Below the pieces are notes generated by a model. It saw only the letters and a program-made list of their open reading frames with translations, was not told the DNA's origin and made no database searches. The position numbers and the translations under genes are program-made. This document shows positions 30,196 to 36,294 of a stretch of DNA of 64,000 bases, piece by piece (the first letter of the stretch is position 1; the number at the start of each line of letters is the position of its first letter). The DNA comes from Thermoproteota archaeon. GTDB taxonomy: Archaea; Korarchaeota; Korarchaeia; Korarchaeales; Korarchaeaceae. Where the stretch lies: assembly GCA_027492205.1 (NCBI GenBank), contig JAOZFN010000010.1:1-64000 (forward strand), written 5' to 3'.

Positions 30196-30748
30196 CTCCG
30201 CTCCTGAGTGAGCTCTGAAAGCTCCGAGAAGTCATCTAAAGAGGGAGGAGCAACGAGATCGACCTCCCCAGCAGACGTCCCGGCTAACTTGGGCTCACCA
30301 GCGCCTCCAGAGTGAACTGCAGGAGCACCTTAGAAAACGCCGCCCCCGCCTCAATGTAGCCTTGGCTCCCCTCGGTCGCAGCCCCCAGCGCACAACGCCT
30401 ACGCAGTGACGTCAGAAGAGAGTCCAGAGGAAAACAAGGGGACTCGCAGATCTGGGGGCATTGGAGTCGTCCTCCGCGAAGGCTTAGCCCTGGACAGCCT
30501 GGGCGGGGAGGTATGCCTTCACGCCCTCCTGGGAATCTCGGCTCTCCTCTTGGGACTTGGCCACGGGCATAGTCCGAGGGAGCTGTCGCTCGGAGATCCC
30601 CCGGTATTGACCTGCCCAGACCCGGGCCCACCCCTCACGTGCGGCGGGAGAGTCCTATTCGAGTTATGAGGTAAAAGGGCAAAGAAGAGCGGAAGTTTGA
30701 CCGCCCGCCACGGCATTATCTTCCGGCGCCCCTCCCTTGCGGGAGACC
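30196..30748. other. Gene-poor region, possibly with decayed coding sequence
   Basis: No convincing gene fills these 550 bp. On the minus strand short coding-like pieces occur in different frames: one ends SELSELTQERS just after 30195, another reads GYIEAGAAFSKVLLQFTLEALV near 30290-30360, and a third reads MPVAKSQEESRDSQEGVKAYL near 30510-30570. Stops or frame changes separate them, which would fit a degraded gene but could be chance. A TATA-like GCATTATC near 30714 belongs to the next gene. Confidence 0.3.
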
Positions 30749-31831
30749 ATGAGCTGGGGAGGGGTCGCTTCTGTCGCTCTGACCCTGATGCTGCTGGCCT
30801 CCGTTGCGTGGGCCGCGGTCTCCGCCCCCTCCTACTCACTATCCGTGTCTGTAACGCCGGGTGAGGGGTCCGTGGGTGAGTCGTTCACCACGTCGGTGAG
30901 GATAGTCATAGACGGCCTCCAGCAGGGAGATGCGGCCCACTCGATTATGTGGACCTGGGATCCAGGGGGGGTCGAGAAGTACTCCGACCACTCCCCCTAT
31001 TGGACTGACGCGGACGCGCCTGTAGACTACGAGACGACGTGGACGGTCACGGCAGACAGCCCGGGAACTTGGACCTCCTGCGTCACCCTGGTTCTCGAGC
31101 ACGCCACCTCCGACGGGGTTGAGCGCGATGAGATAACCCGCTGCTCAACCTTCGAAGTCTCCGAGCAGGGCGGGGGTGGGGGAGGCGGCGGGACCGCTAA
31201 GAGGCCCACCAGAATAACGATCCGCGTCAACCCCGACAAGGTTTCACCCGGAGAGCAGTTCAGCGTGAGCGGGGGACTCTTCGACGACAGTCAGAGCGAC
31301 TGGTGGAACCATCCGATAGCCGGAGCGAGGATAAGGGTGGTGTTCAAAGGGCAAACCAAGACAGCCACCACGTCGGCCAGCGGAGAGTGGAGCGTGGTGT
31401 TCACGGCCCCGGCCCAGGAGGGAACGTACGGGGTCAGGGCTAGCTTTGCGGGTGATTCCCAGTACGATGGGACTTCTGCCAGTGGAACGGTGAGGGTTCA
31501 GAGGCAGTCCAAGAAGAACTGCACGATTGAGCTCATCTTCCCCAGGAGGGTTCGCGTGGGGGATGTCGTCAACGTCACCGTCGTGCTTAGAGACGCCGAG
31601 ACGCACCGAGAGATCAGGGGAAAGGTTGTGACGCTCTACATCGAGGCCGAGAGCCACCGGGTGGAGTCCGGCTCGACCTTCACGATCCAGGCGAAGTACA
31701 CCGGCACTATAGACGTCGGCGCCAGGTTCGAGGGGGATGAGGAGTACAACGGGGCCTACGATCCTGGGGGGCTAATAGAGGTCTGGACGAGACCGGAGAT
31801 CACAATCACCTACGTGGGGTGTGGGGAATGA
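30749..31831 (+). CDS. Secreted Ig-like-domain protein with poly-glycine linker
   Basis: A signal peptide (SVALTLMLLASVAWA) precedes three beta-sandwich regions. The first (about 30-135) contains TSVRIVIDGLQQG. A run of eight glycines then leads to a second domain typical of Big/Ig-like repeats (ITIRVNPDKVSPGEQFSVSG, GEWSVVFTAPAQEGTYGVRA) and a third (VNVTVVLRDAETHREIRGK). No C-terminal anchor is present. I use the ATG at 30749; a TTG 12 bases upstream is possible. It is the first of three overlapping genes of the same kind, probably a surface or secreted complex. Confidence 0.75.
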   Translation: MSWGGVASVALTLMLLASVAWAAVSAPSYSLSVSVTPGEGSVGESFTTSVRIVIDGLQQGDAAHSIMWTWDPGGVEKYSDHSPYWTDADAPVDYETTWTVTADSPGTWTSCVTLVLEHATSDGVERDEITRCSTFEVSEQGGGGGGGGTAKRPTRITIRVNPDKVSPGEQFSVSGGLFDDSQSDWWNHPIAGARIRVVFKGQTKTATTSASGEWSVVFTAPAQEGTYGVRASFAGDSQYDGTSASGTVRVQRQSKKNCTIELIFPRRVRVGDVVNVTVVLRDAETHREIRGKVVTLYIEAESHRVESGSTFTIQAKYTGTIDVGARFEGDEEYNGAYDPGGLIEVWTRPEITITYVGCGE

Positions 31832-32481
31832 GAATCAGAAAGAGGAACCTCCTGGCCCTTCTACTGCTCACCCTGGCCGTGGCCCCTGCCCTTGCCCAGA
31901 CAAAGGTCTACAGGGGGGACACAGTAACGGTATCGGGGGTTGTCAAAGACGAGCTGGGGAACCCGGTGGCGGGAGCGACCGTTCAGCTCCTGGACGGGGC
32001 CACACTGCTGGACTCCACAACCACAGGCTCGGACGGGTCCTTCACCCTCACCTGGACCGTGCCGCCCGACCACCCGCTGGGGCCAAAGACCCTGACGGTC
32101 TACGTGCCTGAGCAGCCGAGCCTCTACGTGGAGGCGTCCTCCGCCTCTGTCTACGTAGAGATCTGGGCCCTGGCCGTGATCAGCGCCAGCGGGCCTCAGC
32201 GTATACACAGGGGAGACGAGGTCACGATATCGGGCTCGGTCCAGGGGATCAGCTCGGGGACCGTGGAGGTTCAGCGAGACGGAAACACGATAGCCACGGG
32301 CCCAGTCAGCGGTGGTCAGTTCAGCGTGAGCTTCACCGTGCCTAACGACTGGCAGAAGGGTCCAGTCACCCTTACGGTGACCTGTCCGAGCGGGAGCTAC
32401 GTGGACGTTCAGGAGGGCCAGGTGAGCACGGGGCTGTGGGTCAGGCCGACGATAGAGGTCACCGAGGTCTCAGGCGGATGA
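31828..32481 (+). CDS. Secreted protein with two Ig-like domains
   Basis: The 217-residue product has a signal peptide (RIRKRNLLALLLLTLAVAPALA) and two repeated beta-sandwich domains. Both open with a similar sequence: KVYRGDTVTVSGVVKDELG and RIHRGDEVTISGSVQG. Both contain the SDGSFTLTWTVP / GGQFSVSFTVP strand. This is the Big/carboxypeptidase-regulatory-like type. No anchor is visible. The ATG overlaps the stop of the preceding gene (ATGA), and its own stop overlaps the next ATG, so the three proteins are made together. Confidence 0.75.
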   Translation: MRIRKRNLLALLLLTLAVAPALAQTKVYRGDTVTVSGVVKDELGNPVAGATVQLLDGATLLDSTTTGSDGSFTLTWTVPPDHPLGPKTLTVYVPEQPSLYVEASSASVYVEIWALAVISASGPQRIHRGDEVTISGSVQGISSGTVEVQRDGNTIATGPVSGGQFSVSFTVPNDWQKGPVTLTVTCPSGSYVDVQEGQVSTGLWVRPTIEVTEVSGG

Positions 32482-33704
32482 TCCCCATGAGGGGGAGAGC
32501 ACTCCCGCTCCTTCTCGGTCTCTTGGGCCCGGCGGCTACCCTCGCTCTGGCGCAGGCCCACGTGGTTCGGGGTCAGGCCCTAACCATCACGGTCAGGCTC
32601 GCAGACGAGAACGGCGCGCCTCTAGCCGGCGTGACGGTCCACTTCTTGGACGAGACTGACGGGGTGGAGGTGGGAGCCGGCGTGACGGACTCCGACGGCT
32701 GCGCCAGCGTGACCTGGGCCACCTCGTCCGCCAGCCCAGGGCTTCACTCGATCCTGATCTGGACGGAGGAAGGCAACTACGTGGAGAAATCGCAGACCAG
32801 GCTCAGCGTAGAGGTACTGGCCCCTGCCGAGCTGGGGCTGAGCGTCTCTGCACCGGCTGCTGTGAGGCCGGGACAGAGCTTCGTGGTTAGGGCTACGGTG
32901 TCTAACGGTGGTCAGGCCGCGGCGCAGGATGTGAAGGTGAAACTCGGCCGAAAGAGCAAGGAACTGGGGGATCTTCCCGGAGGGGCCAGCTTGACGGCTG
33001 AGTTCTCCCTAAGGGCGCCCAACGAGCCCGGAGACTACGATCTGACTGTTGAGGCTGTTGGGGTGGAGTGGGGAACCGGGCGGGCCCTCTCGGTCTCATC
33101 TAGGGTTCACTATCATGTTAAGACCGAGGGGCTGGCGCTGGAGATCAGGGCTCCCTATTCGGTCAGGGAGGGAGAGAAGTTTGCCTTCTCTGTCGATCTC
33201 AGCAACGTGGGGGAAGATGAGGTCAGCCTGTCGATCTCGATAAACATCTCGGGGGCCCGGCCCGACCATATTGAGGACTTCGCCACCCTCAACCCGGGGG
33301 CCAGCATTACACGCGCCTATTTCGCCACGGCAGGCGAGGTGAGCGAAATCTTGTTGATTGCATCAGCCGAAGGAGGAGGCCTGAGAGCGAGCGATGAGGC
33401 GACCATAGCCGTCGTACCAGCCCCTCCCCCGCCTAGGCCTCCAGCCTCACGGCCAACTCCCACAGAGCTTACTTCACCGCCGGCGAATCTGACCTCGCCG
33501 CCCTCGACCTCCCCAGCCACGCGCCTGGCCCCGCCCTCGACCTCCCCGGGCGGGCACGCTGAGGTCGAGGTGAGCGTCACGCCCGATGTAGGCGCGGGGT
33601 CCAACGCCCCTCCCTCACTTAGGGGGGCTTCGGCGCTTGGATCGGGCTTCGTCTTGGCCGCTTTAGTGATCCTCAGGGGGGTGTGGAGGGTGGAAGATCC
33701 CTAA
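32478..33704 (+). CDS. Membrane-anchored Ig-like/CARDB protein with Pro-Ser-Thr stalk
   Basis: After a signal peptide (RALPLLLGLLGPAATLALA) comes an Ig-like domain opening VVRGQALTITVRLADENG. It is followed by two CARDB-like domains (AAVRPGQSFVVRATVSNGG; YSVREGEKFAFSVDLSNVG), a Pro/Thr/Ser-rich stalk and a single C-terminal transmembrane helix (LGSGFVLAALVILRG). It is the probable anchor for the two soluble partners encoded just upstream. I start at the ATG at 32478, overlapping the previous stop; the ATG at 32487 is possible. The ligand is unknown. Confidence 0.75.
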   Translation: MIPMRGRALPLLLGLLGPAATLALAQAHVVRGQALTITVRLADENGAPLAGVTVHFLDETDGVEVGAGVTDSDGCASVTWATSSASPGLHSILIWTEEGNYVEKSQTRLSVEVLAPAELGLSVSAPAAVRPGQSFVVRATVSNGGQAAAQDVKVKLGRKSKELGDLPGGASLTAEFSLRAPNEPGDYDLTVEAVGVEWGTGRALSVSSRVHYHVKTEGLALEIRAPYSVREGEKFAFSVDLSNVGEDEVSLSISINISGARPDHIEDFATLNPGASITRAYFATAGEVSEILLIASAEGGGLRASDEATIAVVPAPPPPRPPASRPTPTELTSPPANLTSPPSTSPATRLAPPSTSPGGHAEVEVSVTPDVGAGSNAPPSLRGASALGSGFVLAALVILRGVWRVEDP

Positions 33705-33779: not shown

Positions 33780-35186
33780 TCAGGGGCACCCCAGCGCCCG
33801 CAGCCCCTCGGGAAGGCCCGCTGTTATTATCCGCTCGATCCCCTCGAGGGGGGCCTCATCGTAGTATACGACGTACTGCCCGTTCTCGAGGGGGGCCACA
33901 TCTCGAACCACGTAGTGAACGAACCCGGAGTGGGCGAGGAAGTTCCTCACATGGTCTGAAGTGTACGTCGCTGACATAGCCTGCTCAAGGAGCCTTACGG
34001 GCTTTGAATTGCGACGGGCGGCCATGAGTCGCTCTAACCAGGCTCCGAGTTCCCTCTCTTCATTTTGACCGGGTGCGCTGGGCCTGAGGAAGTCCAGAGA
34101 CCTTCCAGCCAGGAACCACAGCCTAAACAGCGGGGCCCCAGGCGGGAGCCGCCCAACCCTACACTCCACGGCCTTTCTCTCCAGGAGAAAGCTGGCGAGG
34201 GTGGAAGGTTCCCCCCCACGCCCAGTTGGCGGGGCCTCGTCGAGGGTTCCGGCGACCTCTGAGAGGAGGAGGTGATACTGCAGCACCATGCCCTTCTGCT
34301 TGTAGAGTGAGAGCAGCTTCCCAATCAGCTCAGAGGGAAGAACTCCGAGTTGGCAGCCATGGTCGAGGCCGAGGATTCTGGAAGCTCTCCGCGCGAATTC
34401 ACCCACCAGCAGGGGAACGACTTCTGCTGGCCGGCCCCGGGGGTAGTAATCCCCTCCAGCCTCCGTCCTCTCCAGGAGTTTCAACACCCTGCAGAGGTGG
34501 AGGTGAACCATTGTGGGGGATCCGAGTGACACGCCCAGCGACATCAGCGCGGCCTCTCTCAACAGATCGGCAGACGGACCCGGCCGCAGGCGTGCGGCGG
34601 ATTCCACCAGAGCCCTCCATTGGAGAACTTGTTGAGGATTCTCAAGTATTTTTGATAAAATTTCGGCTATTTGAGCAATTCTCAGGACGCTTTTTGGCGG
34701 CGACTCCTGCGCTCTCCAGGTTGCTCCGCGGGGTTTGCGGGCGATTACCGTGAGCTTCCGCCCCGCCGCCAGCGAGTGAGCTAGGGCGCCCAGGAGGGCG
34801 GAGGAAGTCACCGGGTCGGGTCCACCCCATGGAATTAGGAAGACAACCGTCTCCGCCCCATTCAGGGTTGAGAGAACCGACACGCTGGCGACAAATGCTC
34901 TCTCACCGAGCTCCTCGAGCGCGCAATCGGGGCGTTCGTCCAGGGCCACGCCGACGAGCCGAACGGTCGAACTGGACAGCACGCGACGGTCTAGGCCCTC
35001 GCGGCCCGGCGATCCTCCGGATCTCAACAAAACTAGGGTGGCCTCCCCATCCATGTCTACGATCTTCTCGAGCCCCGTGATGGCCCATTCCAGGGCCTCT
35101 GTCACAGACATCGACTCATCTATACCCCCCTCGGGCGCGCATAGGGGCAGTAGAACTGCGAGGGGCAACTCTGTACTCACCTCCAC
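33780..35186 (-). CDS. Csx1-like protein: Rossmann/CARF-like N-terminus and HEPN RNase motif
   Basis: The 468-residue protein ends in a helical region with VRNFLAHSGF. Its R414-x4-H419 is the HEPN ribonuclease motif, and the RNxxAHxG context is that of Csx1-type CRISPR-associated RNases. The first 180 residues look like an alpha/beta nucleotide-sensing fold (ATLVLLRSGG, TVVFLIPWGGPDPVTSSALLGALAHSLAAGRKLTVIARKP), without the classic DxTHG motif. Csx1 enzymes are activated by cyclic oligoadenylate in type III CRISPR immunity. The GTG start overlaps the stop region of the CARF-like gene upstream (35177-35914). No cas10 or array is in the window, so it may be orphaned or work with a distant locus. 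Confidence 0.65.
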   Translation of the reverse strand: MEVSTELPLAVLLPLCAPEGGIDESMSVTEALEWAITGLEKIVDMDGEATLVLLRSGGSPGREGLDRRVLSSSTVRLVGVALDERPDCALEELGERAFVASVSVLSTLNGAETVVFLIPWGGPDPVTSSALLGALAHSLAAGRKLTVIARKPRGATWRAQESPPKSVLRIAQIAEILSKILENPQQVLQWRALVESAARLRPGPSADLLREAALMSLGVSLGSPTMVHLHLCRVLKLLERTEAGGDYYPRGRPAEVVPLLVGEFARRASRILGLDHGCQLGVLPSELIGKLLSLYKQKGMVLQYHLLLSEVAGTLDEAPPTGRGGEPSTLASFLLERKAVECRVGRLPPGAPLFRLWFLAGRSLDFLRPSAPGQNEERELGAWLERLMAARRNSKPVRLLEQAMSATYTSDHVRNFLAHSGFVHYVVRDVAPLENGQYVVYYDEAPLEGIERIITAGLPEGLRALGCP

Positions 35187-35914
35187 CTAAGAACGGGCCT
35201 CTCTTCGTCACCCGCTCCCGTCAGGATTGAGATGGCTCTGAAGACTGCCCTCCCAAGCTCGGTTGCCCTTGCCTCCCCCGTGACGCCTACTTCGATCAGG
35301 CCAGCCCCGACCAACCAGGCAACTAATTCGCCGTCGGCGCGCTGGTACCTCCCAGAGAGTATCCTCATCACGCTCTCGAGGAGGGCGGGCGGAAGGGGAA
35401 GGATTGGGAGCCTGTGAATCTCATAGTCATCTTGCTCAGGCCAGAAGATCTCTTCAATAACATGCTCCCCGACCTTATCCCAGGACAAAATCGCGCTCCT
35501 CCACCTCTCAAGCCTCTCCCCAGAGGTCGCCATGATGACGGAGTAGACCCCGTCTAGCGGGACCATCTGGGCGATTGAGGTTAGCAGCGCCGCAAGCTCT
35601 GGGGTAGAACAGGAGATTAGAACGCTCACCAGGTCTGGATTGACCGCGCTCAGAGCGTGGCAAACGGCCTCCAGCCACTCCTCTACTTGACCGCTCAGTT
35701 CTACGCCCTCTACCCTCACCCACCTGTACTTCAAGTTGAAGGACTTTCTGAGGATCGGTAGGACCCATTCGGACCCCGGGGGGACTACTAGCACGATCAC
35801 CTCCGGCGCGAGTTCGTCCCTAGCCAGATGTCTGTAGGCTCTACTGATTAACCACGGCTCACTGCACGCAGGAGCCAAAAGCACATTAACGGCCCTTCTG
35901 GGCAGGAAGGGCAT
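35177..35914 (-). CDS. CARF-like protein with C-terminal winged-helix-like tail
   Basis: The 245-residue protein starts with a Rossmann-like strand and loop (VNVLLAPACSEPWLISRAYRHL), continues with PDLVSVLISCSTPELAALLTSIAQM, and ends with an HTH-like segment (LVAWLVGAGLIEVGVTGEARATELGRAVFRA). This arrangement recalls CARF sensors of the Csa3/Csx type, which bind cyclic nucleotides and control transcription or an effector. It is the first gene of a two-gene unit with the HEPN protein (10-bp overlap). The assignment rests on fold pattern only; specific ligand-binding residues cannot be confirmed by eye. Confidence 0.5.
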   Translation of the reverse strand: MPFLPRRAVNVLLAPACSEPWLISRAYRHLARDELAPEVIVLVVPPGSEWVLPILRKSFNLKYRWVRVEGVELSGQVEEWLEAVCHALSAVNPDLVSVLISCSTPELAALLTSIAQMVPLDGVYSVIMATSGERLERWRSAILSWDKVGEHVIEEIFWPEQDDYEIHRLPILPLPPALLESVMRILSGRYQRADGELVAWLVGAGLIEVGVTGEARATELGRAVFRAISILTGAGDEERPVLRWR

Positions 35915-36294
35915 CTACAAGGCCCCTCACAGGGGGATCTTAAGGGTGATGGGGTAAAATTTCCAAATTCAACGTGAAAATTGAAAATCTGACCCACAGG
36001 AGCCTTCCAACTCATCCACCCAGGGCTAGAGCCGGTTCAGAGGAAATCGCCTTCCTAAGTCACTCAGTTTATTAAGGAAGTGGGCTCTGAGCCTCACCCA
36101 GGAGCATCCGGTGGCACAGGAATCGGGACGCCGGGACCCTGCATGGCACTCACCTGATACCCCCACACCCCTAGCCGGAGAAGAATGTCATTGGACGAGT
36201 CGGCAAGGCCCAATAGAGGTAATGCGCGAACTACGGCGTCCCGTTAGATGCAATTCCAGTAAAACCTGCCCAAAAATTTTGGGTGGCTGAGTAG
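35915..36294. other. Long divergent intergenic region of the accessory island
   Basis: This 380-bp gap is more AT-rich than the rest of the window. It holds AT tracts suited to the leftward CARF-like operon (35950-35990), a TATA-like GTTTATTAAGG near 36067-36077, and a perfect palindrome at 36269-36283. I see no open frame and no repeated unit. Confidence 0.4.
36269..36283. promoter_or_regulatory. Perfect 15-bp palindrome, probable operator
   Basis: CCCAAAAATTTTGGG is a perfect inverted repeat around a single central base, ending 11 nt before the ATG at 36295. GGTGG for translation starts inside its right edge. The gene that follows encodes a protein with two Lrp-type HTH motifs, so autoregulation through this site is a natural guess. 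Confidence 0.5.

Follow-up and report, generated by a model that had tools for sequence, protein, structure and literature searches.

A predicted inactive CARF5 ring-nuclease homologue coupled to a diverged Csx1-type HEPN protein in a Korarchaeaceae genome

In the ring nuclease Sso2081, motif I consists of Gly9-Thr10-Ser11 and motif II of Gly104-Arg105-Lys106, and Glu17 and Asp75 touch the bases of cA4 (PMC10018336). The Arg105Ala mutation abolished cA4 binding, and the Arg105Ala/Lys106Ala double mutation abolished cleavage (PMC10018336). Csx15 is a CARF-like protein with no detectable cA4 ring-nuclease activity and was suggested to be a possible cOA sponge (PMC12409355). The divergent CARF domain of RtcR mostly lacks the conserved basic residue (PMC4012209), and damaged tRNAs control the RtcR operon (PMC7790460). 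A published survey dropped candidates for ring nucleases without the conserved residues as false positives and included only genes at most 6 kb from a type III locus (PMC12409355). With this residue filter and distance limit, the survey would miss a dead ring nuclease that is coupled to a Csx1-type RNase and lies at a distance from the cas genes.

Here we describe two genes, P2 and P1, in a stretch of 64,000 nucleotides from a Thermoproteota archaeon (assembly GCA_027492205.1, contig JAOZFN010000010.1), the whole of which is called the window. The features considered are as follows.

35177..35914, minus strand: P2, 245 aa; CARF5 clade; Rossmann-like domain (about residues 8-145) and C-terminal winged helix; predicted catalytically dead
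33780..35180, minus strand: P1, 466 aa; Csx1 subfamily; Rossmann-like N-terminal domain, helical middle part and C-terminal HEPN domain
35858..35866, minus strand: C17-S18-E19 of P2 at the motif-I position (from alignments; role of motif I, PMC10018336)
35600..35614, minus strand: S101-C-S-T-P105 of P2 at the motif-II position (from alignments; S-G-G-R-K in most relatives)
35219..35389, minus strand: winged-helix-like region of P2, about residues 176-232 (from the AF2 model and the match to the CARF5 C-terminus)
35177..35180, minus strand: GTGA stop/start overlap from P2 to P1 (from the junction sequences of both species)
34803..34835, minus strand: degenerate CARF loop of P1 after strand 4, I-P-W-G-G-P-D-P-V-T-S (from the hhalign alignment)
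33822..34064, minus strand: HEPN domain of P1 (from hhalign and the PADLOC and Pfam matches)
33930..33947, minus strand: HEPN catalytic motif of P1, R412-N-F-L-A-H417 (from the sequence; kept in the sister species)
35915..36294, no strand: intergenic region between P2 and an HTH gene that is transcribed divergently (from its good conservation in the sister species)

Among the genomes examined, the pair occurred once more, in G001 (JAOZFH010000025.1, Thermoproteota archaeon Aegir_M25_B147), where it had the same neighbours; this is the sister species referred to below. In the window, P2 lies upstream of P1, and the two overlap by the 4-nt GTGA. The listed frame of P1, 33780-35186, starts from a GTG at 35186 and encodes 468 aa, and the GTG at 35180 gives 466 aa. 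Because the GTGA overlap was present in both species, the start was set at 35180. Judging from this junction, P2-P1 is a translationally coupled two-gene operon. The conserved region at 35915..36294 is probably its promoter region. An Rfam scan of the P2-P1 locus gave no credible match. A frame of 16 codons, MQGPGVPIPVPPDAPG, was also observed upstream of P2 (window 36094-36144, minus strand), with mostly synonymous changes in the sister species; it may possibly encode a leader peptide or a micro-protein. On the plus strand at 30737-33704, three consecutive genes encode Ig-like/macroglobulin-domain proteins. The third of them, with 57% identity and a dN/dS of 0.32, was the fastest-evolving gene among the neighbours compared.

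The family of P2 was examined by profile comparison. P2 matched the PADLOC CARF5 model with an E value of 2.6e-12 over residues 91-228, and CARF5 was the only CARF model that it matched. When P2 was compared profile to profile with nine intact CARF5 proteins, the E value was 1e-13 over residues 11-229. The intact CARF5 profile in turn matched the ring nuclease SSO2081 (E 2e-16), the 7z55/7z56 chain (E 1e-17) and the CARF domain of CARF-deaminases (E of about 1e-5) in the PDB; P1 or P2 as a single query gave chance matches only in the PDB sequence search. For the AF2 model of P2, which was of low confidence (pLDDT 50), the best PDB match by Foldseek was SSO1393 (E 9.7e-5, low TM-score), followed by Sis0811. 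Locally, the C-terminal helix-helix-strand-strand-helix was the best-predicted part of this model, and the C-terminal part matched the CARF5 C-terminus with an E value of 3e-11. From these alignments and the model, we take P2 to be a homologue of the Crn1-type ring nucleases that, like Sso1393, has a winged helix at its C-terminus. An assignment to Csa3 (CARF3-winged helix) was rejected: P2 showed no CARF3 match, and the CARF3 proteins of this genome sit in the cas locus on another contig, C1. A scan of the genome contigs with P2 alone as the query gave no match.

Subsequently, the residues expected to contact cA4 were compared. G10, S12, E18, D72, G105, R106 and K107 were invariant in the alignment of the nine CARF5 relatives. 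At the cA4-contact positions, P2 carries C17, E19, R25, S103, T104 and P105, with residues deleted around the position of the Asp; the sister species shows these same replacements. Thus motif I of Crn1, G-[TL]-S, is not present in P2 (G-x-S became C-x-E, and the position reads C17-[SG]18-E19 across both species), nor is motif II, G-R-K, which is S103-T104-P105 in both. All of the tested residues that bind or cut cyclic tetra-adenylate are replaced in P2. We predict that P2 has neither ring-nuclease catalysis nor standard cA4 binding; accordingly, it is not expected to act as the usual off-switch.

P1 ends in a HEPN-type region. Near the C-terminus, we observed R-N-F-L-A-H-S-G with an intact R-x4-H (R412 and H417). 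The library matches of the C-terminus were weak (Pfam Csx1_HEPN, E 0.03; NCBIfam Csx1, E 0.015; PADLOC, E 0.0022), and all of them were Csx1/Csm6-type HEPN models. Clearer evidence came from Csx1-like proteins of about 550-690 aa in genomes of the same family, whose CARF domain carries D-x-S-[QH]-G-W-N and whose HEPN domain carries R-N-x-x-A-H-x-G; one of them matched the PADLOC Csx1/Csm6 model with an E value of 1.9e-24. The C-terminal part of P1 matched this local family in hhalign with an E value of 1.6e-6. When a profile was built from four of the local relatives with P1 left out, P1 was its sole match in its own genome (E 3e-5), and an eight-member profile aligned with P1 over 382 columns (hhalign, E 2.2e-11). 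In hmmsearch, the loop, a helical G-M motif and the HEPN domain of P1 were found in the correct order. Two hundred shuffles, used as the control for the P1 match, gave nothing comparable. By these alignments, P1 belongs to the local Csx1 subfamily as a diverged member. The link to Csx1 emerged only through this subfamily; against three canonical CARF9 Csx1 proteins, the profile of P1 gave no significant match. Matches to about residues 230-311 of P1 in three other genomes (G055, G075 and G187) were set aside as probable chance similarities between helical segments. Viral contigs, searched with P1 and P2, and plasmids, searched with P1, contained no relative.

In the model of P1, which had low confidence (pLDDT 45), strands and helices alternate along the N-terminal half. 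Taken alone, the N-terminus had no significant similarity to CARF profiles, and the term CARF for this half accordingly depends on the co-linear alignment (E 2.2e-11). Together, the model and the alignment suggest a Rossmann/CARF domain. In the hhalign alignment, D-x-S-[QH]-G-W-N-x-L-T-V of the relatives corresponds to I-P-W-G-G-P-D-P-V-T-S of P1, so that neither DxTHG nor DxS[QH]GWN, the CARF ligand motif, is found in P1. The Foldseek matches of the P1 model were mostly generic Rossmann proteins and were given no weight, and a test for similarity between P2 and the N-terminus of P1 gave no support. The sequence-only reading had described two overlapping minus-strand genes, one for a CARF-type protein and the other for a protein with a Csx1-like HEPN signature and without the usual DxTHG motif. 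This description is borne out by both frames (33780-35186 and 35177-35914), by the PADLOC and profile-profile matches of P2 to CARF5, by R412-N-F-L-A-H-S-G with the C-terminal Csx1/Csm6 HEPN matches of P1, and by I-P-W-G-G-P-D at the aligned position.

The arrangement in relatives suggests where the pair came from. An intact CARF5 gene lies beside or near a CARF9-HEPN gene in G007, G008 and G021 (by sequence also in G010), and G015, G016 and G018 have a CARF5 gene and a Csx1 of the P1 subfamily in one neighbourhood. The simplest history would be the descent of P2-P1 from a Csx1 plus CARF5/Crn1 cassette such as these relatives have. In two of these neighbourhoods, G018 (L045, 1956-7385) and G015 (L049/L076), the Csx1-like CARF-HEPN protein and the CARF5/Crn1 protein have intact motifs; that of G018 also contains a small SAVED4-like protein and CARF7. 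These two genomes are 96-98% complete, and neither was matched by two Cas10 profiles or by a Cmr4 profile. In G016 (L047, 9000-10963) and G015 (L076, 3861-5794), the Csx1-like gene is broken into two frames at about the same N-terminal region; it is whole in G018 and G023. Furthermore, in G014 (L085, 2-3558) a 687-aa protein of the Csx1-like subfamily is followed immediately by a canonical CARF9-type Csx1, the two HEPN-type effectors standing in tandem.

The two genes show 64%/60% identity to those of the sister species, and the dN/dS values in this two-species comparison were 0.23 for P1 and 0.21 for P2, which indicates that P2-P1 is under purifying selection. Residues 300-450 of P1 are 82% identical between the species, compared with 55% elsewhere, and the HEPN motif is intact in both. 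The loop of P2 in which motif II was lost (residues 97-116) is identical at 19 of 20 positions, compared with 59% in the remainder of the domain, and the CARF loop of P1 (residues 113-140) at 23 of 28, compared with 49% elsewhere in the domain. The hypergeometric P value was about 0.001 for each of these two stretches, which were hand-picked and compared in two sequences. The motif-I loops were conserved no better than the rest. Conserved loops at the positions of lost motifs and a dN/dS of about 0.2 speak for a functional, remodelled pocket rather than decay; with just two known sequences of the pair, this conservation has little depth. The poor structure models of P1 and P2 likewise result from only two sequences being usable.

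Taken together, the residues for the usual signal are lost in both P1 and P2 and the HEPN site is intact, so that the pair now probably responds to a different signal or senses it in a different way. We propose that it originated as an accessory cassette of type III CRISPR, in which a Csx1-type HEPN RNase adjoined a Crn1/CARF5 ring nuclease. Most likely, P2 would now be a non-hydrolysing regulatory subunit of P1, which either holds the HEPN dimer inactive or offers a ligand to P1 through the remodelled, conserved pocket. Binding or release of the ligand in infection or stress would then lead to RNA cleavage and growth arrest. Here we infer the RNase activity of P1, its contact with P2, and the existence and nature of the ligand. 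That the two proteins form a ligand-controlled complex, in which a dead ring nuclease regulates a HEPN RNase via a remodelled pocket, we regard as an evenly balanced proposition. The more specific proposal is tentative, and we hold it with some doubt: a Csx1-derived HEPN RNase freed from cyclic-oligoadenylate control, with the former ring nuclease as its non-catalytic sensor or inhibitor and a mixed CARF assembly that answers a different ligand.

The pair had been described as lying without a CRISPR array. Indeed, no CRISPR repeats were found in the 64-kb window. For the organism this does not hold: contig C1 of the same genome carries arrays with 78 and about 18 repeats, together with type III-B cas10 and cmr1/3/4/5/6, type I-A cas3/5/7/8a, cas6, cas1 and CARF3 regulators, and a CRISPR-free organism is ruled out. 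Nor is type III cas10 absent beyond the window; the Cas10 found on C1 by the genome search has the HD, D-G-D-D and G-G-D-D signatures and is apparently cyclase-competent. As the cas genes are on a different contig, the pair is physically detached from the CRISPR locus, as had been suggested. Between an array and cas1 on C1 (G000, L072, 15066-18536), we also noted genes for an unknown 456-aa protein, an HTH protein and a BrxC/BrxD-like ATPase.

With this type III-B system in the genome, a trigger in trans is available. P1, alone or with P2, might be an ordinary type III effector activated by the cyclic oligoadenylate of this Cas10 through non-textbook pocket residues, P2 perhaps being a non-cleaving cOA receptor or sponge. 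In-trans use of effectors is discussed in PMC11229360, and CARF domains without the motif-I G-T-S, such as those of Can2 and Card1, can be non-cleaving sensors (PMC10018336). In the genome of the pair, a draft that is 96% complete in 17 contigs (most of the relatives' genomes are also drafts), the searches gave no Csx1-type match besides P1, no CARF5 match besides P2 and no CARF7. The apparently active Cas10 and the lack of another Csx1 would also fit an ordinary cOA effector and were counted against the ligand-controlled complex. However, P2 has lost the R and K of motif II as well, and Arg105Ala in Sso2081 abolishes cA4 binding; in P1, the D and N of the family motif are missing. Furthermore, although the sister species has other Csx1-like genes with the CARF motif, one of them adjoining cas10, it has kept the pair, diverged in the same way. 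We consider this ordinary effector role unlikely. The sequence-only reading had left a choice between a cyclic-oligonucleotide-activated module and a related system with a separate trigger; the motif losses in P1 and P2 favour the latter, with a different trigger or sensing mode, and are not proof of it.

The pair might also work like a toxin and its antitoxin, in which P2 neutralises P1 by binding or by winged-helix repression of the operon, no nucleotide ligand is used, and loss of P2 activates P1. The order of the genes, with the small regulator first and translation coupled, would suit such a pair, as would the winged helix of P2 and the missing standard ligand residues in both sensor domains. 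Nevertheless, P2 matched no antitoxin family in Pfam or NCBIfam, including the nucleotidyltransferase-type antitoxins (HEPN-MNT), and two of the pocket loops with replaced residues show strong conservation, for which a scaffold that binds no ligand would have no obvious need; we judge this arrangement improbable. A decaying remnant of a type III accessory cassette, which the lost sensor motifs of both genes and the physically separate cas locus might suggest, is highly improbable in view of the frames intact in two species, the dN/dS of about 0.2, and the conserved HEPN motif and promoter region.

Literature searches, outside whose coverage the 2020 CARF classification fell, found no heteromeric CARF pair of the P2-P1 kind. 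If the ligand-controlled pair works as proposed, it shows how the CRISPR alarm pathway can be rewired, and the sensing of other ligands by CARF domains without cOA residues becomes testable on two small proteins.

Among the described systems, the local Csx1 (CARF9-HEPN) subfamily, with members in G001, G014, G017, G018 and G023, resembles P1 in domain order over a co-linear alignment of about 380 positions and shares the HEPN R-x4-H in its RNxxAHxGxxHxxV context. P1 differs in that it is shorter (466 aa), has lost the CARF motif, lies away from cas genes and is coupled to a predicted dead ring nuclease. The Crn1 ring nucleases Sso2081, Sis0455, Sso1393 and Sis0811 have a CARF domain like that of P2, with a winged helix in Sso1393, whereas motifs I and II are replaced in P2. 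The fusion of Csx1 with a Crn2-type ring nuclease (PMC7293037) places an effector RNase and a ring-nuclease-type protein in one genetic unit, as P2-P1 does; there, the fused ring nuclease belongs to the DUF1874 type and is active, whereas P2 is a separate, predicted dead CARF5 protein. Csx15 (PMC12409355) is, like P2, a small CARF-like protein shown or predicted not to cleave cA4, and it sometimes occurs in genomes without type III systems; it belongs to another family and is not coupled to a diverged Csx1. Finally, RtcR is a precedent for P2 and P1 in that a CARF-like domain lacking the basic residue responds to a signal other than Cas10-made cOA, but it is a transcription activator of RNA repair and, unlike P2, not the partner of a HEPN RNase.
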